Origin: Spirochaetaceae bacterium
GTDB taxonomy: Bacteria > Spirochaetota > Spirochaetia > Treponematales > Rectinemataceae
NCBI GenBank assembly: GCA_025356015.1
Contig: JANXYO010000069.1
Coordinates: 1 to 64,000, forward strand
DNA length: 64,000 bases
Direction of reading: 5' to 3'
The notes below the pieces were generated by a model. The model made no database searches. It had not been told where the DNA came from and saw only the letters and a program-made list of their open reading frames with translations. Numbering within the stretch: the stretch's first letter is position 1; each line of letters opens with the position of its first letter. Positions 8,691-24,011 of the stretch are shown here, piece by piece. Position numbers and translations under genes: made by a program.

Positions 8691-8709
8691 CGCCTGCCCC
8701 CTTTTGCCA

Positions 8710-9564
8710 CTAGATGCTGTAGGACGAGAAGCCGCCGTCGATGGGCAGCACGATGCCCGACACAAAGCTCGAGGCGCCTGAGACCAGGTAGAGGACTCCG
8801 CCTATGAGCTCCTCCGGAACACCATAGCGTCCCATGGGCGTGTGGGCCATGACCTTTTTCGCGCGGGGCGTGGGGCCGCCCGTGCCCTGGTCCACGTGGA
8901 GGAACTTGAGCTGCTCGGTCAACAGGAAGCCGGGGGCGAGGGCGTTTACCCTCACGCCCGTGTGGGCGAAGTGGACGGCCAGCCAGGCCGTGAAGTTGGC
9001 GACAGCCGCCTTTGCGGCCGAGTAGGCGCCGACCTGGGTGAGGGGGGTGAGGGCCCCCATGGAGGCTATGTTGAGGATGCAGCCTGAGCCCTGCTCGACC
9101 ATGCCCCGCGCGAAGATCTTGGTGGGCAGGAAGGTCCCCAGGAAGTTCAGGTCGAAGGTCTTGCGCACCCCCTCGAAGTCAAGGGAGAAGAAGTCGCGGA
9201 GCTCGGGATCGCCGAGCTTCTCGCGCTCGAGGAACTCGGCCTTGGTGCTTCCGCTCGGCACGTTCCCCCCTGCCCCGTTGATGAGGATGTCGGGCTTGCC
9301 CCAGGTTGAGACCAGGGAGTCGTAGGCCGCGGTGAGGCTTTTCGCGTCGAGGACGTCGCAGGCGTAGGCGAGGGCCTTGCCGCCCGCTGCGCTTATCGAA
9401 TCGGCGACGGCCTTGGCGGCCTCGAGCCTTAGGTCGAGTATCGCGACCCTTGCCCCGGCATCGCCGAGGGCCCGGGCCATCACTGAGCAGAGGTCGCCCC
9501 CTCCCCCGGTTATCACGGCGATCTTGTCAGTTACGTCGAACAGTGCGGCTATGTCGGTCTTCAT
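8710..9564 (-). CDS. SDR-family oxidoreductase (sugar/sugar-acid type)
   Basis: 284 residues. NAD(P)-binding loop VITGGGGDLCSVMARAL (the TGxxxGxG equivalent), then NGAGGNVPSGSTK where NNAG is usual, active-site Ser in LNIASMGAL, catalytic YSAAK, and C-terminal PIDGGFSSYSI. The NGAGGN variant and the overall length resemble the SDRs annotated as D-mannonate or fructuronate-type oxidoreductases, so a sugar-acid or ketose substrate is likely but not proven. I start at ATG 9564, six bases after AAAGGA. An earlier ATG at 9570 is too close to that site. It lies between an iron-type alcohol dehydrogenase and an MtaA-like gene on the same strand. Confidence 0.85.
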   Translation of the reverse strand: MKTDIAALFDVTDKIAVITGGGGDLCSVMARALGDAGARVAILDLRLEAAKAVADSISAAGGKALAYACDVLDAKSLTAAYDSLVSTWGKPDILINGAGGNVPSGSTKAEFLEREKLGDPELRDFFSLDFEGVRKTFDLNFLGTFLPTKIFARGMVEQGSGCILNIASMGALTPLTQVGAYSAAKAAVANFTAWLAVHFAHTGVRVNALAPGFLLTEQLKFLHVDQGTGGPTPRAKKVMAHTPMGRYGVPEELIGGVLYLVSGASSFVSGIVLPIDGGFSSYSI

Positions 9565-9649
9565 CCACATTCCTTTCCCCGAAGCCGGGCGGACCCACGA
9601 TACCCTGTCTGGCCCGATGCCGCCTATCACGCTGGAGCCTTAAGGCTCC

Positions 9650-10822
9650 CTACCAGTCCTTCTGCGCGGCGAGATGGAGTATCGCGAGGACCTCTTCCCT
9701 GCCAAGCTTGACCAGGTTGCCAAGGGGACCGAAACGCATGGCCTTTGTCGCCATCTCCTCAAGCCTGTCGCCGGGGATGCCGAGTCCGCCAAGGTCGACG
9801 GGCATCCCTATCGAGACCAGGAAATCCCGCATGCGTTTTATCCCTTCGAGGGCAACAGCCTCAGGCTGTCCCGAGGAATCGACGTCCCAGACCCTCGTCG
9901 CGAACTGGACGAAGCGGCCCAGGTTTGCCTTGTAGACAAAGCGCATCCAGGAGGGGAAGAGGGCGGCGAGCCCGGCTCCGTGGGCGACGTCGTAGATCGC
10001 CGAGAGCTCGTGCTCGATGCGGTGGGTGCCCCAGTCTGCCAGGCGTCCCGTATCCAGGAGACCGTTGTGGGCGAGGGACCCGGCCCACATGAGCTCGGCC
10101 CTGGGCGCGTAGTCGCGTGGATCGGCCAGGGCCCTGGTGACGGCGGCGATCACGGTCTTGAGGGTAGCCTCGCAGAGCCTGTCGGTGAGGTCGACCTCGG
10201 CCTCAGATGTGAAGTAGCGTTCCAGGACATGGGCCATGATGTCGGTGGCCCCGCAGGCCACCTGGTAGGGGGGCAGGCTCATCGAGAGTTCGGGGTTCAT
10301 TATCGCGAAGACGGGCCGTATCGCCGGGGCGTTGCAGGCGAGCTTGTGCCAGCCCTCCTCGTCGGTGATCACCGAGGAGATGGAGGTCTCGCTGCCGGCC
10401 GCGCTCAAGGTGAGGACGACACCCACAGGGAGGCTGGCCGCGGGCTGGGCCTTGCCCGTGTAGAAGTCCCAGACATCCCCGGCGTAGACAGCTCCCGCCG
10501 CGATGGCCTTGGCACTGTCGATGACCGAGCCACCGCCGACGGCCAGGACAGAGCCAATCTTGTGCTTGCGGCAGAGCTCGATGCCCTGGCGGACCAGGGA
10601 AAGCCGGGGATTGGGCTTGACCCCTCCAAGCTCGAGGAGCTCGAGGCCCTCAGCCTCGAGGCTCGCCTTCACCTCGTCGTAGAGGCCCGATCGCTTGATG
10701 CTGCTCGAGCCGTGATGCAGGAGGACGGGGCCGCCGAGCTTCCTCATCTCAGCTCCGACGCGGGTCTGGGTCCCCTTGCCGAAGATGACGCGTGTCCCGT
10801 TCTGGTATTCGAAGTTTCTCAC
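9650..10822 (-). CDS. Iron-containing alcohol dehydrogenase (BdhA/YqhD type)
   Basis: 390 residues, the standard length for group III alcohol dehydrogenases. The nucleotide-binding GGGS motif is in VLAVGGGSVIDSAKAIA. Metal ligands are Asp and His in GATDIMAHVLERY and two His in HRIEHELSAIYDVAHGAGLA. NEL-free variants with SAAGSETSISSVIT resemble BdhA/YqhD, which reduce medium-chain and sugar-derived aldehydes with NAD(P)H. The start is GTG 10822, seven bases after GAGG, since upstream codons in the same frame are not protein-like. A strong terminator separates it from PGK, so it probably has its own promoter. A perfect 16-base palindrome (9634-9649) follows its stop. Confidence 0.9.
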   Translation of the reverse strand: MRNFEYQNGTRVIFGKGTQTRVGAEMRKLGGPVLLHHGSSSIKRSGLYDEVKASLEAEGLELLELGGVKPNPRLSLVRQGIELCRKHKIGSVLAVGGGSVIDSAKAIAAGAVYAGDVWDFYTGKAQPAASLPVGVVLTLSAAGSETSISSVITDEEGWHKLACNAPAIRPVFAIMNPELSMSLPPYQVACGATDIMAHVLERYFTSEAEVDLTDRLCEATLKTVIAAVTRALADPRDYAPRAELMWAGSLAHNGLLDTGRLADWGTHRIEHELSAIYDVAHGAGLAALFPSWMRFVYKANLGRFVQFATRVWDVDSSGQPEAVALEGIKRMRDFLVSIGMPVDLGGLGIPGDRLEEMATKAMRFGPLGNLVKLGREEVLAILHLAAQKDW

Positions 10823-10912: not shown

Positions 10913-10943
10913 AACGAGGCGGGGGCTCATCCCCCGCCTCGTT
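10913..10943 (-). terminator. Rho-independent terminator after the PGK gene
   Basis: A perfect 13-bp stem (AACGAGGCGGGGG paired with CCCCCGCCTCGTT, 5-base loop) lies 35 bases beyond the PGK stop. Read on the minus strand it is followed by TTTCTTTTCG. It should end the ABC-AOR-GAPDH-PGK transcript before the alcohol dehydrogenase gene. Confidence 0.85.
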
Positions 10944-10977: not shown

Positions 10978-12237
10978 CTAGCGCCTCACTGGCGCCTTCA
11001 GGTTCCTGTCGTAGGCCTTCTCCATCGCGTCGATCAGGGGCAGCTTCTTGCCCGCGAGGAAGCGCACCATGGCCCCTCCCCCCGTGCAGACGTAGCCGTA
11101 CTTGGAAAGGTCGGTGAACTTGGTCGCGGCGCTGATCGTGTCGCCACCGCCCACGACGGTGTAGCCCGGAGCGTCGGCGATCGCGTTCCAGATCTCCTTG
11201 GTCCCCAGCTCCCAGCGCTCGTCCTCGTACATGCCCGCGGGGCCGTTGACGAAGACCGAGCCCGCCTTCGCGAGGCTGGCCTTGAAGCGCGCTATCGTCT
11301 TCCTGCCAATGTCGGGGAAGGCCTTGTCCTTCGCCACGCTCTGCCCCGGCTCGGGCACATCGAGCTCGGCTCGCCTGCCATCCTCCTCGTAGGCGAGGTC
11401 GAGGGGGAGGACGTACTTCGAGCCCCACTTCTCCAGCAGGGCCTTGGCCTCGGGAATGAACTGGTCGAGGCCCTTGTCGGCCAGGAACTTCCTCGTGGTG
11501 GAGCCGAGCTCGACCCCGCGCGCGAGATGCATCACGAGACCGGTCACGCCTGAGGCGAGGATCTCGTCTGCTGCCCCGTCCTCGAGGACCTTGCGCATCA
11601 TGTCAAAGGCGTCAGATATTTTGGCCCCGCCAAGGACGTAGACGCAGGGCCTCCGTGGCTTGTCCATCACGGTCTTGAGGGCCGTGTACTCCTCCATGAG
11701 CTGTATCCCGCCCGCGCTGGGCCGGAGCTCCTGGAAGGCGACCATCGAGGGCGCGTTGCGGTGGGCCGCGGCGAAGGCGTCGTTGACGTAAAAGTCGGCT
11801 ATCGGCGCGAGGCTCCGCACGAGCCAGGTGTCGAGCATCCCCTCCGGCTTTAGCTTGACAGCGGTCTCGAAGGTCGAGATCTCCTCGGCCAGATAGCGCA
11901 GATTGCCCAGGATGACGGCCTCACCGTCCTTCAAGGCCCGCACAGCGGCGAGGGCGGCCGGGCCGCAGACGTCGTCGATGTAGCCGACCTTTCGCCCCGA
12001 CAGTGCCGAGAGCTTCTGGGCGTGCTCGGCCAGGGGGATGAGGTTCTGGTAGTCGAGGGTGTCGCCCTGGTGGGCGATGAGGGCGACCCTCGCCCCCTCG
12101 GACAGCAGGGCCTCGAGGGTGGGGATCGTCTTCTCGATGCGGTTCGTGTTGACGATCTTCTTGGTCTTTGGATCGATGGGCGAGTTGATGTCGGGGCGGA
12201 AGACGACGGTCTTCCCTCTCAGGTCAAACTCGGCCAT
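10978..12237 (-). CDS. pgk: Archaeal-type phosphoglycerate kinase homolog
   Basis: 419 residues. PGK interconverts an acyl phosphate plus ADP and the acid plus ATP. The sequence follows archaeal rather than bacterial PGKs: FRPDINSPI where bacteria have RVDFNVP, AHQGDTLDYQNL at the archaeal THQGKP position, and VNDAFAAAHRNAPSMVAF, VYVLGGAKISDAFD, ADAPGYTVVGGGDTIS and CTGGGAMVRFLAGKKLP. The nucleotide-site glycines are intact. Asp59 occupies the place of the basic residue (Arg in bacteria, Lys/Arg in archaea) that contacts the substrate phosphate, so the acid may not be 3-phosphoglycerate. It starts 12 bases after the GAPDH stop. An in-frame ATG at 12267 would overlap GAPDH. It is the last gene before a terminator. 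Confidence 0.88.
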   Translation of the reverse strand: MAEFDLRGKTVVFRPDINSPIDPKTKKIVNTNRIEKTIPTLEALLSEGARVALIAHQGDTLDYQNLIPLAEHAQKLSALSGRKVGYIDDVCGPAALAAVRALKDGEAVILGNLRYLAEEISTFETAVKLKPEGMLDTWLVRSLAPIADFYVNDAFAAAHRNAPSMVAFQELRPSAGGIQLMEEYTALKTVMDKPRRPCVYVLGGAKISDAFDMMRKVLEDGAADEILASGVTGLVMHLARGVELGSTTRKFLADKGLDQFIPEAKALLEKWGSKYVLPLDLAYEEDGRRAELDVPEPGQSVAKDKAFPDIGRKTIARFKASLAKAGSVFVNGPAGMYEDERWELGTKEIWNAIADAPGYTVVGGGDTISAATKFTDLSKYGYVCTGGGAMVRFLAGKKLPLIDAMEKAYDRNLKAPVRR

Positions 12238-12248
12238 CGGCCTGATCT

Positions 12249-13286
12249 TTAAGCGTGGGCCTTCCATTTTCCTATCCCCAGGTACTCGTTGGTTTTGCCC
12301 GTCCCTTCCAGACGGTCCCTCTGCATCCCCATGCAGGCCCTGATCCCGTCGATGCTCTCGGGGATGGTGACCGACTCCTGGGGGATGTTTATCGCGAACA
12401 TGATGTCCTTGCCCGACTTCACGATCGAGTCCTCCCAGAGGCCGATCTCGTACATGTCGCCGCGGGGATTGCCCAGGTCGCGGGCATAGCGGAAGAAGCT
12501 GGCGTTGCCCTGGAAGCCCTGGGCTATGGTGACGACCCTGATGCGCGGGTGGCTGCGGAAGGCCTCGAGGGCCGCCTCGACCGACATGTCCTTCTTCGTG
12601 GTCATCACGATCGTGATGATGTGGCCGTGGGTGACGGGGGTGTGCACCAGGATGCCCGTCGCGTCGATGTGGGGCATGATCGTCATGAGGTCGAGGGCCT
12701 GGTGGCTCGGCGCGTGGTCGATCTGGAGGGCGTTGGTGAGGCCCCTGTGGTAGTCGCCCGGATCGGCGACGCGGCGGATGATGGTGATGGCGACCTTCTC
12801 GACCCCGACCTGCCTGTCGACGCAGTCGACGGCCCTGATGAGGCCCGTGGTGTTGCAGGAGGTGAGCTTGAGGAACTGGGCGCCCAGGCCCTTCTCGTAG
12901 TTCGCGTAGCCGTGGAAGAAGACGTCGGCCACCGAGTTCTTCTCCCCGCCCTGGAAGATGCCCTTCTTGCCGTGCTTGGCGTAGAGCTCCTTATTTCTGG
13001 CTCCCACGCCGGCGCTCGTCGCGTCGAGCATGACGTCGACCTTCTTCACGAGGTCTTCCATGCTGCCTGTGACGGGGATGCCCGCCTTCTCGAGATCGGC
13101 CCGCTTCTCGTCGGCCGCGCAGTACAGGGCATAGGGCATGCCCTTCTCCTTGAGCGCCTGGACCGAGAGGGTCGGGGCGACATCGGCCACGCCGACGAGC
13201 TCCATGTCGCCCTGGAGGGCCACGCCGTCGGCGAGGCGCTGTCCTATCACGCCGTAGCCGGCCACACCCACCCTTACCTTAGCCAT
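12249..13286 (-). CDS. Archaeal-type (type II) glyceraldehyde-3-phosphate dehydrogenase homolog
   Basis: 345 residues. It lacks the features of bacterial GAPDH and instead follows archaeal type II GAPDH: VGVAGYGVIGQRLADGVALQ (Rossmann start), VDVMLDATSAGVGARN, IFQGGEKNSVADVFF, catalytic C144 in LTSCNTTGL, RRVADPGD, and PQESVTIPESIDGIRA near the end. The expected reaction is phosphorylating oxidation of an aldehyde to an acyl phosphate with NAD(P), feeding the adjacent PGK. Several normally conserved spots differ: SHQALD for SHHGPD, PQES for HQES, and GLTNALQI for GPxNAIVP. These hint at a changed substrate. The gene lies between AOR and PGK in one operon, with an intergenic repeat just upstream. 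Confidence 0.9.
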   Translation of the reverse strand: MAKVRVGVAGYGVIGQRLADGVALQGDMELVGVADVAPTLSVQALKEKGMPYALYCAADEKRADLEKAGIPVTGSMEDLVKKVDVMLDATSAGVGARNKELYAKHGKKGIFQGGEKNSVADVFFHGYANYEKGLGAQFLKLTSCNTTGLIRAVDCVDRQVGVEKVAITIIRRVADPGDYHRGLTNALQIDHAPSHQALDLMTIMPHIDATGILVHTPVTHGHIITIVMTTKKDMSVEAALEAFRSHPRIRVVTIAQGFQGNASFFRYARDLGNPRGDMYEIGLWEDSIVKSGKDIMFAINIPQESVTIPESIDGIRACMGMQRDRLEGTGKTNEYLGIGKWKAHA

Positions 13287-13316
13287 ATCGATACCTCCTA
13301 AATAATCTCTATCTCC

Positions 13317-13330
13317 GCGCCTCTGCGGTT
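13317..13330 (-). repeat. Copy of an intergenic repeat core upstream of the GAPDH gene
   Basis: GCGCCTCTGCGGTT here is identical to 18064-18077, part of the inverted-repeat element at 17916-18077. Flanking bases (CTATCTCC before, ATCTTCC after) are only partly shared. It lies in the roughly 80-base gap between the AOR and GAPDH genes. Confidence 0.5.
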
Positions 13331-13367
13331 ATCTTCCACAGCCCGGCCCAAAGGCCCCTTCGTTTTG

Positions 13368-15248
13368 CTACATGAGCCAGCCGAGGCCGAGCTCCTTGAG
13401 CTTAACCTCGGTCGGATCCCCGGTCACGGGGTCCCAGCCGTTGAGAGCGTAGTACTCGGAGCGCCTCGCGAAGAAGTTGGCCCTGTCGAGCTTCCTGCCC
13501 TTGCCACGGCCCTCGTTGACGAGGCCGTCCTCGAAGAGCCGCTCGGGAAGGACGTCGTCCTTGGCCTCGAAACCCTCGCGCTTGTTGAACATCTTCATCA
13601 TGTTGATGCGGCGTTCGCCAAGGAGCATAAACTCATAGAGCGAGTAATTCCAGCCCGTCGCCGCGTTGACCGCATCCATGAACTCCTCGAAGTTGTAGAT
13701 CGTCCAGGTGTGGAAGGTGAACTGGCAGACCGACATGGTGTCGATCCCGCTAACGAAACGTTGCGAAACCGACATTAGTTTGGTCTTCTCGAAGTCGAGG
13801 GTGGCCGGGTTGGGCACGCTCTCGTAGAAGCCGAAGGCCTTGAGGTTGTCGGCCGGCTCGACCAGGCAGCCGTCGTGCTCGGTGGAGACATGGTCGGGGC
13901 CGAAGGGGTTCACCGCGTAGGCCAGGGCCATGATGCCCTTGGAGGTGGGCATGTGGGCGGGGAACTCCTTGTCCTTGACGGTCATGCATATCCGCTCCGC
14001 CGCCGGCCCGAGCTTGCGCGCCAGTCGGGCGGTGCCTTCGGCCATCGCGTCGCCAAAGCCCTCGCGCTTCACGGTCATCTCGGCGAGCTTCACGACGGCG
14101 GCGGCGTCGCCAAAACTGGCGCTCATCCCGATGTCCTTCTCGCCGAGGATCCCCTTCTCGAAGCATTCCATGACAAAGCCGATGACCCCGCCCAGGGCTA
14201 TCGTGTCGGCCCCGTACTTGCTGGCTATCTCGTTGGCCTTGGAGATGGCCATGATGTCGCCCACGCCGCAATTCGGGCCCAGCATGCCCAGGCTCTCGTA
14301 CTCGGGGCCGCCGTAGCGGGGCTCGATCATCCAGGGGCTGGTGATTCCCTTCTTTATGTCCCGTTTGCAGGCCTGGGCGCAGGCCCAGCAGGTGCCCGGG
14401 CCGTCCATCATCGTGTCGTGGTAGACCTCGGCCGTGAGCTTGTCGGCGCCCTCGAACTGGCCCATTGTCCAGTTACGGGTGGGCAGGCCGCCCAGGTCGC
14501 TGTTCCAGCTCACGTTGAGGGTCGTGCCGTACTTCTTCCAGTTGTTCGCTCCCTCGTTCTCCTCGACGCGCTTGGCGCCGAGCTTCCCGAGCTCGGCGAG
14601 CCGGGCAGGGTCGTGGAACTCGGGCTTGCGCGTGCCCCTGACGGCCACGGCCTTGAGGTTCTTCGAGCCCATGACGGCCCCCACACCCGAGCGGCCGTTG
14701 AAATGCTTGAGCTCGTTGGCTATCCCGGCGAAGCGCACGAGCTTCTCTCCGGCCGGCCCGATGAGGCAGACCCTGACCCTCTCGTCCTTGAGCTCGGCCC
14801 GGATCGCGTCCTGGGCCTCGCCCGTGACCTTGCCCCAGATGCCCGTGGCGTCGCGCAGCTCGTAGGCGCCGTCCTTGATCCACAGGTAGACCGGCTTGGG
14901 CGACCTTCCCTTTATGACGATCGCGTCGAAGCCCGCGAAACGGAGCTCGGGCGCCCAGAAGCCTCCGGCCTCGCCGGTGGCGAAGCCTCCAGTCTGGGGG
15001 GACTTGGTGGTCACGCAGTGCCGGGCGTTGCCCGAGACCGGAGCCCCGGTGATCGGCCCTATGGAGTAGACGAGGACGTTGTCCGGACTCAAAGGCTCGA
15101 CGCCGCTCTTCATCATGGTGAGGAGGTAGTAGGCGCCGATGGCCCCGCCGCCGACGTACTTGCGGTAGAAGGCCTCGGCCGGCCGCTCTTCCTCGAATTT
15201 CCCGGTGCTCAAGTCAACGTGAAGGACGACTCCCGAGTAACCTTTCAT
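13368..15248 (-). CDS. aor: Tungsten-type aldehyde:ferredoxin oxidoreductase (AOR family)
   Basis: 626 residues, full length for the family. Enzymes of this type oxidise aldehydes to acids using a tungstopterin cofactor and pass electrons to ferredoxin in the cytoplasm. The 4Fe-4S ligands are visible: C287, C290 and C294 in TCWACAQACKRD, plus C508 in TMSVCQF, matching the spacing in hyperthermophile AOR. The N-terminal pterin domain has GGGAIGAYYLL, GPITGAPVSGNARH, GGFWAPELRFAGFDAIVIKG and NGRSGVGAVMGSKNLKAVAV. It could be an AOR or GAPOR-like enzyme, and sequence alone does not settle the aldehyde. It lies between the ABC importer genes and the GAPDH-PGK pair. No ferredoxin or tungstate transporter gene is visible here. 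Confidence 0.93.
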   Translation of the reverse strand: MKGYSGVVLHVDLSTGKFEEERPAEAFYRKYVGGGAIGAYYLLTMMKSGVEPLSPDNVLVYSIGPITGAPVSGNARHCVTTKSPQTGGFATGEAGGFWAPELRFAGFDAIVIKGRSPKPVYLWIKDGAYELRDATGIWGKVTGEAQDAIRAELKDERVRVCLIGPAGEKLVRFAGIANELKHFNGRSGVGAVMGSKNLKAVAVRGTRKPEFHDPARLAELGKLGAKRVEENEGANNWKKYGTTLNVSWNSDLGGLPTRNWTMGQFEGADKLTAEVYHDTMMDGPGTCWACAQACKRDIKKGITSPWMIEPRYGGPEYESLGMLGPNCGVGDIMAISKANEIASKYGADTIALGGVIGFVMECFEKGILGEKDIGMSASFGDAAAVVKLAEMTVKREGFGDAMAEGTARLARKLGPAAERICMTVKDKEFPAHMPTSKGIMALAYAVNPFGPDHVSTEHDGCLVEPADNLKAFGFYESVPNPATLDFEKTKLMSVSQRFVSGIDTMSVCQFTFHTWTIYNFEEFMDAVNAATGWNYSLYEFMLLGERRINMMKMFNKREGFEAKDDVLPERLFEDGLVNEGRGKGRKLDRANFFARRSEYYALNGWDPVTGDPTEVKLKELGLGWLM

Positions 15249-15291: not shown

Positions 15292-16305
15292 TCACCGGGT
15301 CTTCCTGTGCGAGAGGAAGTCCAGGGAGACGGCGACTAGGAGGACGAGGCCCGTCACCAGCGACTGCCAGTAGGGTCCCACGTCCATCAGGTTGAGCGAG
15401 GTCTGGATGAGGGCGAGGAGGGCTATGCCCAGGACAGAGCCGAAGATCGTGCCCTCGCCTCCGTTCAGGCTCGCCCCGCCGATGACCGCCGCGGAGATCG
15501 CGTCCATGTTCACCGTCGTCGCCAGGGTGTTCGTCGCCGAGTTGAAACGGGCTATGGAGAGGATGCCGGCGAAGGCCGCGAGGGCACCCACGAGCATGTA
15601 GACTCCCATCCTCACCTTGTTGACATTGATGCCCGAGAAGCGGGCCGACTTCTCGTTCGAGCCGACGTAGTAGATCTTGCGTATGATCGTGGCCCTACGG
15701 GAGAGGAAGTCGAAGACGAAAACCACGACCAGGAAGAGAAGGATGACGAAGGGCATCCCCGTCGAGCCTATCATGCCGCGTCCGATGAACTTGAAGGCGT
15801 CGGGCAGGCTCTGCAGCGGGAGGGGCATGCCCTGGGACACGACCGAGGCGACGCCGTAGCCGACCTGCATCATGCCCAATGTCGTAATGAAGGGCGACAG
15901 GCCGATGCGCGTGATGAAGAGGCCGTTGATCGCCCCGATGAGGAGGCCCAGGCCGATGCCGATGGCTGCGGCCAGCCAGATGTTCATGTGGAGGTTCAGG
16001 AAGAGGGTCCCCACCACGATGCCCACGAGGGCCATGACGGCGCCGACCGAGAGGTCGATGCCCCCGCTGATGAGGGCCAATGTCATGGCGATGACGACCA
16101 TGCCGTTGATGGCGAAGCTCATGAACATGGTCCTGAAGTTCTCCACCGTGAGGAAGTAGGGGGAGAGAAAGGTCATGATCAGGCCGAGGCCCAGGATCAC
16201 GAGGATCGTCGTGCCCTCCCTGAAGCCGCCCTTTCCGCCGAGCCGTCCTGCCCTGCCCCTCTTCGCGTCGGCCGGGGCCGCGCCCTTGATAGTGCTCGCA
16301 TTCAT
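15292..16305 (-). CDS. Ribose-type sugar ABC transporter permease (left arm)
   Basis: 337-residue inner-membrane permease of the RbsC/AraH family (BPD_transp_2) with eight to ten hydrophobic helices. Family motifs are IALISGGIDLSVGAVMALVG-like (ALISGGIDLSVGAVMAL), GAINGLFITRIGLSPFITTL, YYVGSNEKSARFSGI and VIGGASLNGGEGTIFGSV. The start ATG 16305 overlaps the ATPase stop by four bases (ATGA), showing translational coupling. The polar, lysine/arginine-rich first 30 residues are cytoplasmic. The AOR gene follows 43 bases later, tying transport to aldehyde oxidation. The substrate cannot be read from the permease. Confidence 0.93.
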   Translation of the reverse strand: MNASTIKGAAPADAKRGRAGRLGGKGGFREGTTILVILGLGLIMTFLSPYFLTVENFRTMFMSFAINGMVVIAMTLALISGGIDLSVGAVMALVGIVVGTLFLNLHMNIWLAAAIGIGLGLLIGAINGLFITRIGLSPFITTLGMMQVGYGVASVVSQGMPLPLQSLPDAFKFIGRGMIGSTGMPFVILLFLVVVFVFDFLSRRATIIRKIYYVGSNEKSARFSGINVNKVRMGVYMLVGALAAFAGILSIARFNSATNTLATTVNMDAISAAVIGGASLNGGEGTIFGSVLGIALLALIQTSLNLMDVGPYWQSLVTGLVLLVAVSLDFLSHRKTR

Positions 16306-17870
16306 ACCGCTGCTCCTGTGCCTTCGGTTTCGCGCTCTTCGCTGCTCAGGCATGCCATCTGGATGATGGACCGCTCGTTCACGTCTGCGCCCTCGAGTAT
16401 CCCGCAGATCCTGCCCTCGTACATGACAGCCACCCGGTCGCAGACCCCGATGACCTCGGGCAGCTCGGAGGAGATCATGATGACCCCGATCCCCTCGCTG
16501 GCGAGCTTGCGCAGGAGGTGGTATATCTGGGCCTTTGACCCGATGTCGATGCCCCTCGTGGGCTCGTCCATGATGACGACCTTGGGAGCCACGGAGAGGA
16601 GCTTTGAGATGAGGACCTTCTGCTGGTTGCCGCCCGAGAGGCTGTTCGCCTTCTGGCCCACGCTGGCGAGCTTGATCTGCATCTCGCTTGAGTACTTCTC
16701 GGCGAGGCCCGACTCGGCCTTCGCCTGGATGAGGCCGACGGACGCGACCCGGGAGAGGTCCATGACCGAGATGTTCTTGGCGATCGAGAGGTCCAGGAAG
16801 AGACCCTCGAGGGCGCGGTTCTCGGTCAGGTAGACAAGACCCTTCGCAATGGCGTCCCGGTACTCGCGAGGCTCGATCTCCTCGCCAAGGAGGCTGACCC
16901 TGCCAGAGTCCTTGCGGCTCAGGCCGCAGATGGCCCGCGCCACCTCGGTCCTGCCGGAGCCGACCAGGCCCGCGAAGCCGAGGATCTCGCCGCGGCGCAG
17001 GGAGAAGCTCACGTCCTCGAACTCGCCCTTGCGTGTGAGGCCTGAGACCTCGAGGATCGGCTCGGCCGTGGCCGGGCCCGCGGTGGCGGCGGCGCCGCAT
17101 CCCATCGCCGAGGCCACGGCTTTGGCGGGGTAGATGTCCTTGAGGTCGCGGCCGACCATGCGGTTGACGAGTTCGACCTGCGTGATATCGGCGACGGCCC
17201 TTGTCTCGATGAGGCGGCCATCGCGCAGGATCGTCACCATGTCGGCCACCCGGTAGATCTCGGCGAGGCGGTGGCTTATATAGAGGATTCCGATGCCCTT
17301 CTTCTTGAGGGTCCCGATGATGCGGAACAGGACCTCGGTCTCCGACTCGGTGAGGGCCGCGGTGGGCTCGTCGAAGATGATCACCTTGCAGTTGACCGAT
17401 AGGGCCTTGACGATCTCGATGACCTGCTGCTGGGAGATGCTCAGGTCCCTCACCTTCTGGTGGGGATCGATGCGGCTGTGTGCCTCGAAATCGGCCAGGA
17501 GCTTCGCCGTCTTGGCGAAGATGCCCTTGAAGTCGACGAGGCCGGCGCCCCTGATGGCCGGCATGAAGATGTTCTCGGCGACGCTTATGTGCTGGCAGAG
17601 GGCTATCTCCTGGTGGACGAAGCCTATGCCGAGCTGGAGGGCGTCGTTGGGCGAGCGGACCGAGACCTTCTCGCCCTCGAGATAGATCTCGCCCTCGTCC
17701 GTCTGGTAGACCCCGCCGATGACGTTCATCAGGGTCGATTTTCCCGCCCCGTTCTCGCCGACGACTGCGTGGACCGTGCCCGGCTCCACACAGATGCTGA
17801 CCCCGTCGAGGGCCTGGGTGGCGAAGAACCGCTTGCGGATGCCGCGCACTTCCAGAATCGGATTAGCCAT
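16302..17870 (-). CDS. Ribose-type sugar ABC transporter double ATPase (left arm)
   Basis: 522 residues with two ABC domains, as in RbsA/MglA. Domain one has Walker A GENGAGKST, signature region LSISQQQVIEIVKALS and Walker B VIIFDEPTAALTESE. Domain two has the degenerate loop GLVGSGRTEVARA, signature LSGGNQQKVLISK and Walker B VVIMDEPTRGIDIG, the usual asymmetry in this family. I start at MANPILEV (17870), about six bases after GAGGGGCG. Codons further upstream belong to an intergenic repeat. It powers import with the permease (ATGA overlap) and the binding protein encoded 240 bases upstream. Confidence 0.93.
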   Translation of the reverse strand: MANPILEVRGIRKRFFATQALDGVSICVEPGTVHAVVGENGAGKSTLMNVIGGVYQTDEGEIYLEGEKVSVRSPNDALQLGIGFVHQEIALCQHISVAENIFMPAIRGAGLVDFKGIFAKTAKLLADFEAHSRIDPHQKVRDLSISQQQVIEIVKALSVNCKVIIFDEPTAALTESETEVLFRIIGTLKKKGIGILYISHRLAEIYRVADMVTILRDGRLIETRAVADITQVELVNRMVGRDLKDIYPAKAVASAMGCGAAATAGPATAEPILEVSGLTRKGEFEDVSFSLRRGEILGFAGLVGSGRTEVARAICGLSRKDSGRVSLLGEEIEPREYRDAIAKGLVYLTENRALEGLFLDLSIAKNISVMDLSRVASVGLIQAKAESGLAEKYSSEMQIKLASVGQKANSLSGGNQQKVLISKLLSVAPKVVIMDEPTRGIDIGSKAQIYHLLRKLASEGIGVIMISSELPEVIGVCDRVAVMYEGRICGILEGADVNERSIIQMACLSSEERETEGTGAAV

Positions 17871-18110: not shown

Positions 18111-19136
18111 TCACCAGCCGACGAACTGCTTGGATCCGCGCTTCTTGAGCCAGTCGTTCGTGTAGAAGTACTTGGCGTTGTCGGCGGTGATCAGGTCGAG
18201 GCCGTTGTCGACGTAGGGGAGGCTGAGGAGGAAGTCACCCTTGGCCGAGGCGCCGTTGAGCGGATCGACCATCTGGTTCTTCGTGAGATAGAGGATCATG
18301 AAGCTGAGGTAGCCCTGCATGTAGGCGTTCGGCTGGATGGAGCCCATCATCTGACCCTTCTGGATCATCTCGAGGATGGCGGCGTCCATGTCGCAGCAGA
18401 GGACCTTGATCTTCCCGCCGAGCTCGACCGAGGCCTGGGCGGCCGCGCGGCCCGAGGGGCCTTCGGGGCTGAAGATGCCGCCGAGGTCGGGGTTCTTCTG
18501 GGCGACGCTCATGATCGCGGCGTAGGTCTTGGCCCCGTCCTGCTGGGACATGTACTCGGCCACGACCTCGATCCCGGGGAACTCGTCCTTGAGGGTCTTG
18601 ATGAAGGTGTTGACGCGGATCTGGTGGTTGGTCTGGGTGTTGCGGGTGACCATGACCTTGCCCTTGCCGCCGAGGGCCTTGGCCATCGCGCGGGCGGCGA
18701 AAGCGCCTTCCTTCTCATTGGAGGAGGTGACGAAGCCGACCTTGGCGGTGTTGGTGTCGCTGGCGAAGGTGACGACGGGGATCTTCTTGGCCATCGCCGA
18801 CTTTACGGGCTCGATGAAGGCCGCGTCGTCGACCGGGGAAAGGGCGATGCCCGCCGGCTTCTTGGTCATGATCTGCTCAAAGGCCGTGACCTGCTTGGGA
18901 CCATCGTACTCGGTCGTGCCCTGGTAGACGGCCTTCACGCCCATCTGCCTGGCGGCGTCCTTGAAGCCCTCGAAGGCGGCGACCCAGTACTCCACACCCG
19001 AGACGAAGGTGCACATGTAGTAGGTCTGGTCGGCCGGGCCGGAGAACTTCTTGTTCTGGACCTGCGCGGCGACTGCACCCATTCCGAGGATGCAGAGGAT
19101 GAGGAGAATCGAGAGAACTTTCACAGTCTTTGCCAC
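18111..19136 (-). CDS. Sugar ABC transporter substrate-binding protein (left arm)
   Basis: 341 residues with a signal peptide (KVLSILLILCILGMGAVAAQ, cleavage about residue 24), then a periplasmic-binding-protein type 1 fold (Peripla_BP_4): YYMCTFVSGVEYWVAAFEGF, ITFASDT-like hinge VVTFASDTNTAKVGFVTSSN, KVMVTRNTQTNHQIRVNTF, and a lobe switch near IFSPEGPSGRAAAQ. Starts with GTG 19136, preceded by AGGAGG. It is the first gene of the left operon, reading away from the shared divergent control region. Closest in kind to ribose/xylose/autoinducer-type binding proteins. The ligand is unknown. A long repeat element follows it. Confidence 0.92.
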   Translation of the reverse strand: MAKTVKVLSILLILCILGMGAVAAQVQNKKFSGPADQTYYMCTFVSGVEYWVAAFEGFKDAARQMGVKAVYQGTTEYDGPKQVTAFEQIMTKKPAGIALSPVDDAAFIEPVKSAMAKKIPVVTFASDTNTAKVGFVTSSNEKEGAFAARAMAKALGGKGKVMVTRNTQTNHQIRVNTFIKTLKDEFPGIEVVAEYMSQQDGAKTYAAIMSVAQKNPDLGGIFSPEGPSGRAAAQASVELGGKIKVLCCDMDAAILEMIQKGQMMGSIQPNAYMQGYLSFMILYLTKNQMVDPLNGASAKGDFLLSLPYVDNGLDLITADNAKYFYTNDWLKKRGSKQFVGW

Positions 19137-19354: not shown

Positions 19355-20614
19355 ATGAACGGAAGAGAAAGGATACGGCTCGCCCTCGATCACAAGGAAG
19401 CAGACAGGGTCCCGGTGGATTTCGGGGGCTGCGCCCAGACGACCATCCACGTGAGCGTAATTGCCCAGCTTCGGGACCACTTCGGCCTGCCCAAGGAGCC
19501 GGTCATCGTCGAGGAGCCCTACACCATGATGGGACGCCTCGACGAGGACCTCAAACAGGCCATGGGTGTCGACGTCGACGCCCTCAACCCCCTGTATTCC
19601 TTCTTTGGCATCCCTCGCGCGGGCTGGAAGGAGTTCAGGATGGAGGACGGCCTGGAGGTCCTGGTGCCGGGCGACTTCCACGTGACGAGGGACAGTCAGG
19701 GGGACATATTCACCTATCCCCAGGGCGACACTTCCGTCCCTCCGAGCGCCCGCATGCCCAAGGGTGGCTACTACTTCGACGCCCTTATGCGGCAGGAGCC
19801 CATCGTCGAGGAAAAGCTGAAAGCAGAGGACAATCTCGAGGAGTTCGGCCAGGTGAGCGAGCAGGAGCTCGATTTCCTCGTCCAGGGCCTCAAGGCACAG
19901 GCCGCCTCGGGCCGCGCCAGTCTTGGCGTCGTGCCCGGCTCTGGTCTGGGCGACATCGCCTGCGTACCGGCGCCATGGATGAAGGCTCCCAAGGGCATCA
20001 GGGACATCGAGGAATGGTACATCTCCACGATTGCCCGGCCCGAACTCCTCCACGAGATCTTCTCCCGCCAGACCGATATTGCCATCGGGAACCTCAAGCG
20101 GATCCACGACAGGATCGGCGAGGGCATGGACGTGGCATGGGTCTGCGGAGCCGACTTCGGTACCCAGACCTCGACCTTCTGCTCGCCTGGGACCTTCAAC
20201 GAGCTTTACAAGCCCTACTACCGCAAGGTCAACGACTGGATCCACGGGAACACGGCCTGGAGGACCTTCAAGCACTGCTGCGGTGCGATCGAGTCCTTTA
20301 TGGAAGCTTTCATAGAATCGGGCTTTGACGTCATCAATCCCGTCCAGTGGACGGCGAGCGGCATGGACCCGAAGCTCCTCAAGGAGCGCTACGGCTCGCG
20401 CATGGTGTTCTGGGGCGGCGGGGTCGACACTCAGAGGACCCTGCCCTTCGGGACTCCCCAGCAGGTCCGGGCCGAGGTCCTCTCGGTCTGCGAAACCTTC
20501 GCCCCGGGGGGCGGCTTTGTCTTCAACACCATACACAACATCCAGGCGAACACCCCGGTAGCCAACATCGTCGCCATGCTCGATGCCCTGGACGAATACA
20601 ATGGCCGCCCCTAG
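19355..20614 (+). CDS. URO-D-family protein of the sugar island (second, divergent type)
   Basis: 419 residues with the uroporphyrinogen-decarboxylase/methyltransferase barrel. The N-terminus MNGRERIRLALDHKEADRVP and the strand GADFGTQTSTFCSP are typical. The metal-site region reads FKHCCGAIESFM, but the region that carries the third zinc ligand in MtaA-type enzymes reads FNTIHNIQANTPVANI, so that Cys is absent. This marks a separate subfamily often found in carbohydrate clusters, with no established function. The ATG has AAGGAGATCG upstream and follows a strong promoter. It is the first gene of the right arm and faces the ABC operon of the left arm. It is not a haem enzyme judging by context. 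Confidence 0.82.
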   Translation: MNGRERIRLALDHKEADRVPVDFGGCAQTTIHVSVIAQLRDHFGLPKEPVIVEEPYTMMGRLDEDLKQAMGVDVDALNPLYSFFGIPRAGWKEFRMEDGLEVLVPGDFHVTRDSQGDIFTYPQGDTSVPPSARMPKGGYYFDALMRQEPIVEEKLKAEDNLEEFGQVSEQELDFLVQGLKAQAASGRASLGVVPGSGLGDIACVPAPWMKAPKGIRDIEEWYISTIARPELLHEIFSRQTDIAIGNLKRIHDRIGEGMDVAWVCGADFGTQTSTFCSPGTFNELYKPYYRKVNDWIHGNTAWRTFKHCCGAIESFMEAFIESGFDVINPVQWTASGMDPKLLKERYGSRMVFWGGGVDTQRTLPFGTPQQVRAEVLSVCETFAPGGGFVFNTIHNIQANTPVANIVAMLDALDEYNGRP

Positions 20615-20702
20615 GGGCCCCTCAAGGCGGGGAGGGGCGGACAAGGTGGCTCCACTTGACCTCAGGCAGGACGATGGGCTAGCCTTATTTCCATATACCA
20701 CA

Positions 20703-21581
20703 ATGATCGACCTCGAGGAGGACGACCTGGCCAGCCCCAAGAAGAAGACAAAGGAACCCCGGGAATACTCAGCACCCGCCGTCGACCGCACCCTCGATGT
20801 CCTCGAATACATGGCCAAAAGCTCCCAGCCCTACGGGGCGACCGAGCTTTCCCGCGCCCTCAAGATCCCCCTCAACTCCGTCTTCCGCATCCTCAAGCGT
20901 CTCACCGAGCGCGAATACACGACCCAGGACCCCATCTCGGGCGGCTACCAGCTCGGGACCAAGGTCTTTTCCCTGGGGATGAGCCTGTACACACGCTACG
21001 AGCTCCGCCAGCGGGCCAGGGTCCACCTTGAGTGGCTGTGCCGGGAGACCGAGGAGACTGTCCAGATGTCAGTCCCCCGGGGCGAAAAGCTCCTCGTCCT
21101 GGACACGATCAGCCCCGAGGTCGAATTCTACCTCAGGGTCGTGCCGGGGAGCCTCGTATACTACCACCCGAGCGCCTTCGGCAAGGCGATCCTCGCCTTC
21201 GAGACCGAGGAGAGGGTCCTTGAGATCCTCCCGCCCCGGCTTCCGGCCCTCACCCCAAAGACCATCCTCCTGCGCACCGAGCTGGTTAAGAGCCTCGAGG
21301 AAACGAGGAAGACGGGCCTCGCCTACGACGACGAGGAGTACACGACGGGCATCCTCTGCATCGGCGCCCCCGTCTTCGACGTTTCCGAGAGGGCCGTCGC
21401 CGGCCTGGGCATCACCGGCCTGATCTCAACCTTCGGCAAGGGCCGCAAGGCCATATTCGAGCAGCTCGTCCTCGAATGCGCCCGCCGGGTCTCCAAGGAT
21501 ATCGGCTACACGGGCAAGTTCTTCGACGACAAGCTCAACCGGATCGTCGAGAGCCTTCCCAAGGAGCCCGAGGTCTACTAG
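20703..21581 (+). CDS. IclR-family transcriptional regulator
   Basis: 292 residues. Winged helix-turn-helix at about 20-85 (APAVDRTLDVLEYMAKSSQP, YGATELSRALKIPLNSVFRI) and an IclR effector domain at about 100-275 (FGKAILAFETEE, GLAYDDEEYTTGILCIGAPV). It is about 25 residues longer than many IclRs, owing to a charged N-terminal tail. The ATG at 20703 has no clear ribosome site, and CATATACC lies just upstream, so a leaderless start is possible. It sits 88 bases after the URO-D gene and is followed by a terminator. It is the only regulator in the island and the likely controller of both arms, probably responding to a pathway intermediate. Confidence 0.93.
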   Translation: MIDLEEDDLASPKKKTKEPREYSAPAVDRTLDVLEYMAKSSQPYGATELSRALKIPLNSVFRILKRLTEREYTTQDPISGGYQLGTKVFSLGMSLYTRYELRQRARVHLEWLCRETEETVQMSVPRGEKLLVLDTISPEVEFYLRVVPGSLVYYHPSAFGKAILAFETEERVLEILPPRLPALTPKTILLRTELVKSLEETRKTGLAYDDEEYTTGILCIGAPVFDVSERAVAGLGITGLISTFGKGRKAIFEQLVLECARRVSKDIGYTGKFFDDKLNRIVESLPKEPEVY

Positions 21582-21739: not shown

Positions 21740-21859
21740 TACCTGTAAAATGAATCAGAGAGCACGGAACCTGGTCTAGGAAGGACGGTTTCAACCGGAA
21801 CAGCGGCGTCGCCGCGGCCTTCGAGAGGGAATCCGGAAGATCAATTTAGGAGGGTGGAT

Positions 21860-23026
21860 ATGATCAAGGACTTCAGCTTCTACATTCCCGTGAAACTCGT
21901 GTTTGGCGAAGGCAAGCTCGCCGCCGCGGGCGACGAGGTGAAGGCCATCGGCAAGAAGGCCCTCATTGTCACGACCGGCGAACTCTTCAAGAAGACGGGC
22001 CTCGTCGACCGCCTGGCAAAGGTCCTTGCCGCCGCAGGCGTGGCTTCGGCCGAGTACAGCGACGTCTCCCCCAACCCGCTCCACACCGAGATAGACGCCG
22101 GCGCCGCCTTCGCGAAGAAGAACGGCTGCGACGTCATGATCGGCCTCGGCGGCGGCAGCGCCATCGACGCGGCCAAGGGCATGGCCATCGCCCTCGGCCA
22201 CGACAGGCCCATCTGGGACTTCTGCATGGGACCGAACCAGGCCAGCATCAGCTCGAAGACCCTGCCCATCGTCGCCATCACGACGACCTCGGGCACAGGC
22301 AGCGAAGGGACCCAGTGGGCCGTGATCACCAACAAGGCCACCCTCGAGAAGCCGGGCATCGGCTCTGACTACACCTTTGCCCGCGTGGCCATCGTCGACC
22401 CCGAGCTCATGGTTTCCATGCCCCCCAAGGTCACCGCCTCCACCGGCTTCGACGCCCTGGCCCACTCCATAGAGGCCTACACCTCGACCCTCGCCACCCC
22501 CATCACCGACATGTACTGCGAAGAGGCCATCAGACTCATCGGCAAGTACCTGCGCCGGGCCGTCAAGGACGGCAAGGACCGCGAGGCCCGCAATGGCATG
22601 GCCTTCGCCAACACCCTTGGCGGCTTCTCGATCGCCGTCGGCATCGTCACGGTCTGCCACGGCCTGGCCCACTCGGTCGGCGGGGTCGCGAACACCACCC
22701 ATGGCGAGAGCCTCGCCGCCATGACCCCCCAGACCATGCGCTTCTCCATGGCCGGCAACCCCGACAAGTTCAAGAACATTGGAATGTTCCTCCGAGACGA
22801 GTATGTGAACCTTGGCCAGGAAAGGCTCGAGGACTCGGTGCGCGAGGTTGAGAGGCTCATCGCCGACGTGGGCCTCGACAACGGGCTCTCGAAGCAGGGC
22901 GTGAAGGAAGGCGACATCGAGCGCATCGCCGACGGCGTCGTCCGCTACATGGGCGGCTCGATCGAGATCGATCCCATGAATCCCACAAAGAAGGACCTCG
23001 TCGAGATCCTCAGGAAATCCATGTAG
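21860..23026 (+). CDS. Iron-containing alcohol dehydrogenase (right arm)
   Basis: 388 residues. GLGGGSAIDAAKGMAIAL is the nucleotide loop, and TTTSGTGSEGTQWAVIT is the classical FeADH motif. Metal ligands are Asp and His in TGFDALAHSIEAY and His residues in VTVCHGLAHSVGGVANTTHG. Relatives oxidise or reduce 1,3-propanediol, butanol, lactaldehyde or glycolaldehyde. The start ATG 21860 is placed at optimum distance from AGGAGGG; a GTG six bases earlier lies inside that site. It is a different subgroup from the left-arm enzyme at 9650-10822, so the island has two non-redundant dehydrogenases. It is the first gene of the unit that runs to the transketolase genes. Confidence 0.92.
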   Translation: MIKDFSFYIPVKLVFGEGKLAAAGDEVKAIGKKALIVTTGELFKKTGLVDRLAKVLAAAGVASAEYSDVSPNPLHTEIDAGAAFAKKNGCDVMIGLGGGSAIDAAKGMAIALGHDRPIWDFCMGPNQASISSKTLPIVAITTTSGTGSEGTQWAVITNKATLEKPGIGSDYTFARVAIVDPELMVSMPPKVTASTGFDALAHSIEAYTSTLATPITDMYCEEAIRLIGKYLRRAVKDGKDREARNGMAFANTLGGFSIAVGIVTVCHGLAHSVGGVANTTHGESLAAMTPQTMRFSMAGNPDKFKNIGMFLRDEYVNLGQERLEDSVREVERLIADVGLDNGLSKQGVKEGDIERIADGVVRYMGGSIEIDPMNPTKKDLVEILRKSM

Positions 23027-23037
23027 CTGCCGCGCTC

Positions 23038-23075
23038 GAGGAGGCAAAAGGCCCCAAACGGGCCTCCCGCCTCCT
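23038..23075. other. Intergenic hairpin between the ADH and lactonase genes
   Basis: GAGGAGGC pairs with GCCTCCTT, with an inner AGGCCC/GGGCCT stem. No T-run follows, so it is more likely an mRNA-stability or partial-termination element than a true terminator. Confidence 0.4.
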
Positions 23076-23104
23076 TATGATCGCGCACGAGGGGCCATAC
23101 ACCG

Positions 23105-23989
23105 ATGAAAGCCGAGCCTAGCGTCCAACATGTGCTTTGCGTGGGGAACGAGATCGGCGAGGCGCCGATCTGGGTTCCCGAGGAAGGAAGGCTCTACTGG
23201 GTCGACACCGAAGGCTCACGCGCCTTCTCCTGGCGGCCTTCATCCTGCGAGCTCAGGAGCTACGAGCTCAAGATGCCGGCCACCGCCCTCCTGCGGCGCA
23301 GGGGAGGCGGCTGGCTGGCTGTGACGAAGAAGGGCCTGGCCTTCTGGGACCAGGGCTCGGGCCAGTTCGAGTTCATCGTCGATCCCGTGGCCGACAATCC
23401 AGAGCTCTGCTTCAACGACGGGGCGATCGACCGCCGCGGCGTCCTGGTAACGGGCACGATGAACTTCCACGAGCATGTCAGAAAGGACGGCCGGGTCTAC
23501 CGCATGGGCACCGACCTCGCCTTGAGCGAGATCGCCTCGGGCCTGTCGGTCGCGAACGGGATCGGCTTCAGCCTCGACGGGAAGACGCTCTACGTCTCCG
23601 AGCAGTTCGCGGGCCGCATCCTCGCCTGGAACTACGACCAGGGCTCAGATCTGCTCTCGAACATGAGGACCTTCGCCGAGGTCGAGAGGGAGAAGGGCCT
23701 GCCAGACGGGATCATCGTCGACGCCGAGGGCTTTGTCTGGAACGGCCGCTGGGGCGGGGGCAGGATCGCGCGTTATGCGCCCGATGGGAGCCTCGATCGC
23801 GAGATCCTCCTGCCCGTCGAGGTGGGCACCTGCATGGCCTTTGGCGGCGAGGACCTTGACGAGCTCTACATCACGACGGCCTGGTACGGCCTCGATACGG
23901 CCGGCAGGGAAGCAAAACCACAATCCGGCGACCTCTTCAGGGTGCGGACCGGAATCAAGGGCCTCGTCGAACCACGGTTCGCGGGCTAG
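23105..23989 (+). CDS. SMP-30/gluconolactonase/LRE-family lactonase
   Basis: 294 residues forming a six-bladed propeller that hydrolyses sugar lactones with a divalent metal. Metal and substrate residues are visible: Glu in IGEAPIWVPE, Asn in CFNDGAIDRRG, Asn in GLSVANGIGFS and Asp in GLPDGIIVDAEG. RLYWVDTEG and KTLYVSEQFAGRI are typical blades. It has no signal peptide, so it is cytoplasmic. Its presence implies that a cyclic sugar is first oxidised to a lactone, most simply by one of the SDRs encoded immediately downstream. The next gene follows 22 bases later. Confidence 0.9.
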   Translation: MKAEPSVQHVLCVGNEIGEAPIWVPEEGRLYWVDTEGSRAFSWRPSSCELRSYELKMPATALLRRRGGGWLAVTKKGLAFWDQGSGQFEFIVDPVADNPELCFNDGAIDRRGVLVTGTMNFHEHVRKDGRVYRMGTDLALSEIASGLSVANGIGFSLDGKTLYVSEQFAGRILAWNYDQGSDLLSNMRTFAEVEREKGLPDGIIVDAEGFVWNGRWGGGRIARYAPDGSLDREILLPVEVGTCMAFGGEDLDELYITTAWYGLDTAGREAKPQSGDLFRVRTGIKGLVEPRFAG

Positions 23990-24011
23990 AGCACACACGA
24001 GGAAGGTAGTC

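Follow-up and report, generated by a model that had tools for sequence, protein, structure and literature searches.

A candidate IolC-independent route for myo-inositol built on type II GAPDH and archaeal-type PGK homologues in Spirochaetota and other bacteria

In the classical myo-inositol pathway of Bacillus subtilis and Salmonella (IolG-E-D-B-C-J-A), aldol cleavage yields dihydroxyacetone phosphate and malonate semialdehyde, and a published survey of inositol users lists IolC as a core gene (PMC9430895). Archaeal modified glycolysis employs a type II glyceraldehyde-3-phosphate dehydrogenase (GAPDH-II), phosphoglycerate kinase (PGK), and glyceraldehyde-3-phosphate ferredoxin oxidoreductase (GAPOR). 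Here we analyzed a stretch of 64,000 nucleotides (positions 1 to 64,000 of contig JANXYO010000069.1; hereafter the window) from Spirochaetaceae bacterium GCA_025356015.1, in which genes for an aldehyde:ferredoxin oxidoreductase (AOR), a GAPDH-II, and an archaeal-type PGK lie consecutively on the minus strand behind a ribose-type ATP-binding cassette (ABC) importer. We put at roughly 0.7 the probability that the GAPDH-II/PGK clade represented by this pair conserves energy in the middle section of a catabolic route, independent of IolC, for myo-inositol and probably for other keto-aldonates as well. Held a little less firmly, though still considered likely, is the fuller proposal of a widespread natural bacterial route, in which a split transketolase would cleave inositol-derived 5-dehydro-2-deoxy-D-gluconate, the GAPDH-II and PGK homologues would give D-malate and ATP via 1-malyl-phosphate, and malate racemases would gain a physiological role. 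Searches of open-licence PMC papers turned up no such inositol route, although it could be described in a preprint or in a paper behind a subscription.

Parts of this proposal are shared with several described systems. IolG, IolE, and IolD of the upper part, all above curated cut-offs, are common to the classical pathway and are accompanied by an IolB-like isomerase that scores under its cut-off, but the cleavage proposed here is by transketolase, to a C4 semialdehyde. The leg from malic semialdehyde through D-malate to pyruvate and CO2 has been established experimentally in carnitine degradation (PMC11353897), where a non-phosphorylating aldehyde dehydrogenase is used without ATP gain; here GAPDH-II and PGK homologues would take its place, the aldehyde would come from transketolase, and a racemase plus malic enzyme is the commoner exit. 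Sulfofructose and 5-ketogluconate are already known as transketolase substrates (PMC9594981, PMC12016104), and the sulfo-TK pathway with its SqwGH transketolase differs in having a sulfonated substrate, no GAPDH-II/PGK step, and an excreted C2 sulfonate. Archaeal modified glycolysis has the same GAPDH and PGK families and the logic of an AOR-family bypass, whereas the bacterial GAPDHs described here form a separate clade with altered substrate loops, the AOR is not a GAPOR, the setting is a catabolic operon, and house GAPDH and PGK are also present. Finally, an engineered malyl-phosphate pathway to 2,4-dihydroxybutyrate shares the malate kinase and malate-semialdehyde dehydrogenase chemistry, which was described there as previously unreported (PMC5481828). 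That pathway uses aspartate-pathway enzymes on the 4-carboxyl of L-malate, whereas natural enzymes would here act on the 1-carboxyl of D-malate in the reverse direction.

Inositol genes around the GAPDH-II and PGK pair

Operons that combine GAPDH-II and PGK with inositol genes are spread over six or more bacterial phyla; culturable carriers include Flexilinea flocculi, Fonticella tunisiensis, and Carboxydocella thermautotrophica. We sampled 91 loci, comprising the best 80 of at least 514 relatives from a genome-collection scan, ten spirochaete loci, and the window, a sample that leans to close relatives. Counted over these loci, the recurrent neighbors include, besides PGK, LarA (54), IolD (48), a cluster (c8) identified as IolE (48; the source-genome member scores 419 bits), the two halves of a split transketolase (41 and 38), IolG (41), an IolB-like protein (38), and malic enzyme (30). 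Family searches of the operon proteins gave IolD (907 bits), IolG (496 bits), malic enzyme, and split transketolase, with LarAH6 as the top LarA model. Aldolase, IolC, and triosephosphate isomerase were not recurrent among the common neighbor clusters.

Unlike users of the classical pathway, carriers of the pair generally lack its lower genes. Profile searches found IolC above its cut-off in just two of 49 carrier genomes (1/34 and 1/15), leaving 47 without it, and IolA in three of 34, leaving 31 without it; by contrast, all four IolC-positive spirochaetes with IolD have IolA. Among 296 Spirochaetota, GAPDH-II is present in six of the 13 IolD genomes and in three of the 283 others (Fisher 1.5e-7), and among the IolD carriers it occurs in none of the four with IolC versus six of the nine without (one-sided p = 0.049); both p values are indicative, because species are not independent. 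The pair lies outside an iol operon in 11 genomes, all of which have IolD elsewhere and eight of which have LarAH6 above cut-off. Three spirochaetes, G256 (locus L155), G293 (L156), and G024, carry IolD but neither IolC nor GAPDH-II above cut-off, a pattern in which yet another lower branch may exist.

In the source genome, a contig of 8.6 kb (C67) carries IolG, an IolB-like gene, IolD, IolE, malic enzyme, and LarA, and has no GAPDH-II, PGK, or transketolase. Its IolG (492 bits, cut-off 355), IolE (419, cut-off 290), and IolD (905, cut-off 715) exceed their curated cut-offs, and the other C67 genes fall below theirs, the IolB-like protein reaching 96 of 205 bits with TIGR04378. The window holds a split transketolase, both halves being present and adjacent, and is the sole location of GAPDH-II in the genome. 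By profile search, the genome contains no IolC (top kinase 119 bits, cut-off 300) and no IolA match. C67 and the window are complementary halves, though unjoined in the assembly; in relatives such as L061, GAPDH-II and PGK sit between IolD and malic enzyme. The original prediction did not include the transketolase pair at 25.6-27.3 kb or the C67 inositol operon, the latter lying outside the sequence on which it was based. In four other loci (L064, L110, L113, and L134), GAPDH-II, PGK, transketolase, and malic enzyme genes are found with an IolO-like epimerase, and the lack of IolD in three of these four genomes suggests a different sugar-acid feed.

From the observed gene content, clustering, missing classical genes, and family assignments, we infer the substrates, the direction of flux, and the role of the AOR as follows. 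Inositol would be converted to 5-dehydro-2-deoxy-D-gluconate by IolG, IolE, IolD, and the IolB-like isomerase. Regarded as a 2-ketose, this compound has the 3S,4R configuration of a transketolase donor (stereochemistry check), and the split transketolase would shift its C5-C6 ketol unit to glyceraldehyde-3-phosphate to give xylulose-5-phosphate and (R)-malate semialdehyde. The latter, (R)-3-hydroxy-4-oxobutanoate (OHC-CHOH-CH2-COO-), is an isostere of D-glyceraldehyde-3-phosphate, with -COO- for -O-PO3 as the sole difference. Using phosphate and NAD(P), GAPDH-II would oxidize D-malate semialdehyde to 1-malyl-phosphate, from which PGK and ADP would yield D-malate and ATP. Conversion of D-malate to pyruvate and CO2 would need either a racemase (of the LarAH6 type) ahead of malic enzyme or a D-malate dehydrogenase, and these are the two alternatives seen in the loci. 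In the source genome, C67 would supply the racemase and malic enzyme together with the upper part of the route, and the window would supply the GAPDH-II/PGK/transketolase part. The GAPDH and PGK reactions of the parent families are reversible, and the pair could in principle run reductively, spending ATP and NAD(P)H on the conversion of malate to malate semialdehyde or a related aldehyde for biosynthesis; we regard this as very improbable, given that the pair clusters with catabolic Iol enzymes, LacI regulators, and importers and that no biosynthetic sink was seen.

GAPDH-II and PGK beside the house glycolytic enzymes

The window GAPDH lies above both curated cut-offs (TIGR01546, 305 bits against 233; NF003251, 408 bits against 185), has Pyrococcus 2czc as its nearest solved structure, and conserves the catalytic residues Cys144 (SCNTTG) and His222. 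In the alignment, the whole clade has substitutions at residues that do not vary among the archaeal sequences: GPI becomes GLT, SHHG becomes SHQA, and His299 (Methanothermus numbering) becomes Pro. These changes in the substrate loops, which are suggestive only, bear on whether glyceraldehyde-3-phosphate is the substrate of GAPDH-II. The window PGK scores 331 bits with PF00162 (cut-off 27), and among solved structures it is nearest to Pyrococcus 2cun (270 bits), the top bacterial structure reaching 184 bits. In short-search trees with few archaeal references and with Shimodaira-Hasegawa-like approximate likelihood ratio (SH-aLRT) support in place of bootstrap, the operon GAPDH-IIs form a single clade (SH-aLRT 100), apart from the archaeal GAPDHs and from a plasmid-borne bacterial group, while the operon PGKs cluster with Pyrococcus (93) and are separated from the house PGKs (99).

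The GAPDH-II clade spans Spirochaetota, Bacillota, Chloroflexota, Synergistota, Atribacterota, and Planctomycetota. Because it covers six bacterial phyla, the gene is no private acquisition of this spirochaete, contrary to the original prediction, and a recent transfer from archaea into this spirochaete is unsupported by the GAPDH tree. The accompanying view that all three genes follow the archaeal version of their family holds for GAPDH and PGK, on the basis of models, Pyrococcus structures, and trees, and neither falls among ordinary bacterial glycolytic enzymes, a placement that would have counted against the original prediction; the AOR is a general family member.

Other GAPDH-II homologues were also encountered. 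In the one at 9113-10126 of L056 (genome G246), which adjoins PGK and a split transketolase, the motif of the catalytic Cys is gone (SCNTTG to PQPSLV), and the protein may be a pseudo-enzyme or have another activity. The second bacterial group (about 34-38% identity) resides on plasmids of Rhodococcus, Acidovorax, Meiothermus, and others (e.g., L160, L161, L162) beside phosphorylase, phosphofructokinase, aldolase, and AarF/UbiB genes, with no PGK in the stretches read. GAPDH-II genes on IMG/VR contigs (L138-L152) make up a group of their own close to the archaeal enzymes.

On contig C136, the source genome has another PGK of the standard kind (486 bits), adjoined by a type I GAPDH that is split across the ends of contigs C136 and C12, and a further PGK occurs in all 31 genomes with an operon PGK, normally at 464-596 bits (contig ends interrupt it in the L062 genome). 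Since standard PGK and type I GAPDH exist elsewhere in the genome, the window pair is peripheral, as originally proposed, and its interpretation as the house glycolysis was rejected. The same interpretation, suggested at first sight by pairs beside aspartyl-tRNA synthetase in Clostridia metagenome-assembled genomes (MAGs), was rejected there too, as those genomes have a second, standard PGK, IolD elsewhere (the 11/11 above), and mostly LarAH6 above cut-off (8/11).

It might nevertheless be argued that GAPDH-II and PGK are dedicated glycolytic isoenzymes, acting on ordinary glyceraldehyde-3-phosphate from sugar catabolism next to a GAPOR-like AOR. The family annotation of both enzymes agrees with this, transketolase chemistry connects to glyceraldehyde-3-phosphate, and the PGK substrate site is largely conserved, retaining Asp24, Asn26, Arg39, His62, Arg122, Arg170, and Lys219, with Asp at position 65. 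The missing basic residue at position 65 was rejected as proof that the substrate is new, because this genome's house PGK and yeast PGK lack it as well. Such isoenzymes would, however, stand beside a standard PGK in every carrier tested and among neighbors that recurrently include neither aldolase nor IolC nor triosephosphate isomerase; malate racemase and malic enzyme would be left without explanation, the AOR is distant from GAPOR, and glyceraldehyde-3-phosphate is itself required as the transketolase acceptor. We therefore consider this reading unlikely. The PGK site gives no proof of a novel substrate, and it is the genomic context that argues for malate. The neighbors and the missing genes indicate malate semialdehyde from inositol, and not the glyceraldehyde-3-phosphate of the original prediction, as the likely substrate.

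Proposed malate exit, AOR, and the evidence weighed

The source-genome LarA matches LarAH6 (NF052593) best among the LarA models, at 402 of 500 bits, and LarAH6 is above the curated cut-off in eight other carrier genomes (528-557 bits). The best solved relative of the source-genome LarA is the LarAH6 malate racemase Mar2 (6d6z, 231 bits versus 174 for lactate racemase), whose residues Tyr172, Gln293, and Lys351 are retained in the alignment. The discoverers of malate racemases did not settle what these enzymes do in vivo (PMC7583248). A tartrate/D-malate-dehydrogenase-like gene is found in some loci (in L050, TIGR02089 469.8 bits against a cut-off of 470.4), and LarA and malic enzyme are both missing from all six of them (Fisher 0.002), of which at most five are independent because L055 and L073 are apparently one contig. 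When only long loci are considered, the pattern holds in four of four (p = 0.010). This exclusion applies within the locus only, as some of these genomes carry LarA homologues elsewhere.

The AOR contains the domains AFOR_N (PF02730, 242 bits) and AFOR_C (PF01314, 362 bits) and the motif CWACAQAC at residue 287. Its identification as GAPOR was rejected (NF040818, 43 bits against a cut-off of 1300), which leaves a general AOR-family protein. It may provide a ferredoxin-linked bypass of GAPDH and PGK, and the original idea that AOR and the GAPDH-PGK pair could be alternative means of oxidizing one aldehyde is supported. AOR genes are also close to GAPDH-II, PGK, malic enzyme, and LarA in L102 and L114. 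The run at 2034-10482 of L102 (Tindallia) comprises an HpaI-type aldolase-like gene, AOR, an IolB-like protein, GAPDH-II, PGK, malic enzyme, and LarA, without IolD; going by sequence-derived names for the aldolase and IolB-like proteins, it is possibly an alternative source of the same C4 semialdehyde. Five more AOR-family genes are present in the source genome (contigs C57, C150, C19, C100, and C99), with 25-34% identity to the window AOR over the aligned parts.

Several observations weigh against the inositol route. IolD was not found in nine of 24 carriers tested, and the N-terminal transketolase half is present in 29 of 48 iol loci, so transketolase is missing from some. The IolB-like proteins (96-106 of 205 bits) and the LarA proteins (399-402 of 500 bits) score under their curated cut-offs, LarA has Phe at Mar2 Lys173, and the 3-phosphoglycerate-binding residues of PGK are the usual ones, bar one position that varies in normal PGKs too. 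The source genome has its inositol half and its GAPDH-II/PGK/transketolase half on separate contigs, and other sugar genes occur in the window cluster; the window module may therefore serve another substrate. The L062 genome has a second archaeal-type PGK, which adjoins IolD.

In a different account, the window module would act chiefly on another aldose or aldonate, and inositol would be secondary. Short-chain dehydrogenases/reductases (SDRs) and an SMP30-like lactonase would produce a 5-keto-aldonate, transketolase would release a C4 aldehyde such as tartrate semialdehyde, and its oxidation to tartrate would fall to GAPDH and PGK or to AOR. The local SDRs, SMP30-like gene, and two importers, partly conserved with L062, are in line with this account, as are the separate PGK of L062 and the nine carriers without IolD. 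In addition, transketolase is known to convert 5-ketogluconate to tartaric semialdehyde (PMC12016104), and some malate racemases epimerize tartrate (PMC11770544). On the other hand, the source genome has IolG, IolE, and IolD with no IolC, IolA, or other GAPDH-II, and neither a tartrate dehydratase nor a decarboxylase was identified in the cluster. This account appears to us quite unlikely. The inositol route remains preferred, and it allows that the module could additionally serve another sugar via the local SDRs.

The window cluster and the meaning of the proposed route

As originally described, the AOR, GAPDH, and PGK genes form a minus-strand unit after the ribose-type importer, and all three genes were confirmed. 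There are 43 nt between permease and AOR, 81 nt between AOR and GAPDH, and a 19-nt overlap of GAPDH and PGK. The unit is part of a bigger cluster of approximately 7.7-32.2 kb, whose divergent plus-strand arm contains an iron-type alcohol dehydrogenase, an SMP30-like protein, SDRs, the split transketolase, and a second ABC importer (Table 1). At the end of the unit, a strong terminator had been proposed; a hairpin with a T-rich tail is indeed present, but terminator-like sites as a class are not above shuffles (6 vs 6.6). The top named model for sugar-binding protein A is the rhizopine-binding protein NF052284, at 83 of 420 bits and well under cut-off. The order binding protein-ATPase-permease-AOR-GAPDH-PGK is kept, beside a second importer, in the Treponema MAG L062 (67-87% identity). 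Two URO-D/MtaA-like genes, at 7683-8765 (minus strand) and 19355-20614 (plus strand), also lie in the cluster and score far under the curated methyltransferase cut-offs.

Table 1. Coordinates of features of the gene cluster in the window
Feature	Position	Strand	Details
SDR oxidoreductase, D-mannonate oxidoreductase subfamily	8710..9630	-	PRK08277 364 bits, cut-off 281; putative local sugar-acid step
Iron-type alcohol dehydrogenase	9650..10822	-	PF00465
Terminator-like hairpin 3' of PGK	10913..10943	-	13 pairs, G+C-rich, T-rich tail; fold z = -2.4
Archaeal-type PGK	10978..12267	-	429 aa; PF00162; proposed D-malate kinase (malyl-phosphate + ADP -> D-malate + ATP)
Type II GAPDH	12249..13286	-	345 aa; TIGR01546, NF003251; Cys144 and His222 retained; proposed phosphorylating D-malate-semialdehyde dehydrogenase
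AOR-family tungsten-type aldehyde:ferredoxin oxidoreductase	13368..15248	-	626 aa; PF02730/PF01314; CxxCxxxC at residue 287
Ribose-type ABC importer permease A	15292..16305	-	PF02653; 87% to L062 orthologue
Ribose-type ABC importer ATPase A	16302..17870	-	BLAST to operon ATPases; 73% to L062 orthologue
Periplasmic sugar-binding protein A	18111..19136	-	PF13407
IclR-type regulator	20583..21581	+	PF01614, PF09339; probable local regulator
Iron-type alcohol dehydrogenase	21854-23026	+	in 21854..25527 block; possible feeder enzyme for second sugar
SMP30/gluconolactonase-like protein	23105-23989	+	named from sequence, without NCBIfam match; possible feeder enzyme for second sugar
Two SDRs	24012-24797, 24781-25527	+	possible feeder enzymes for second sugar
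Transketolase N-terminal half	25556..26398	+	PRK05899.2-5 positions 9-281 of 627; 67% to N-terminal half of L058 inositol operon
Transketolase C-terminal half	26403..27341	+	PRK05899.2-5 positions 317-624 of 627; 62% to operon C-terminal half
Second ABC importer, putative periplasmic binding protein	27462..28490	+	position and signal-like start only
Second ABC importer	28586..32186	+	ATPase 28586-30076, permeases 30073-31095, 31092-32186; 72-78% to L062 orthologues

In guts, soils, and anaerobic digesters, inositol is plentiful as a carbon source and derives largely from phytate. The gene set described here, which is spread across several bacterial phyla, probably breaks inositol down by an undescribed route with relatives of glycolytic enzymes. 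As a large published survey counts IolC as core, it would tend to overlook genomes with this module or leave them without a lower branch. If the route is true, it would represent natural malyl-1-phosphate chemistry and an ATP-yielding oxidation of a C4 semialdehyde. It would also provide a physiological source of D-malate and so account for the malate racemases, a point that is still open in the LarA field. Moreover, the type II GAPDH and PGK annotations in many anaerobes may then not denote glycolytic enzymes.

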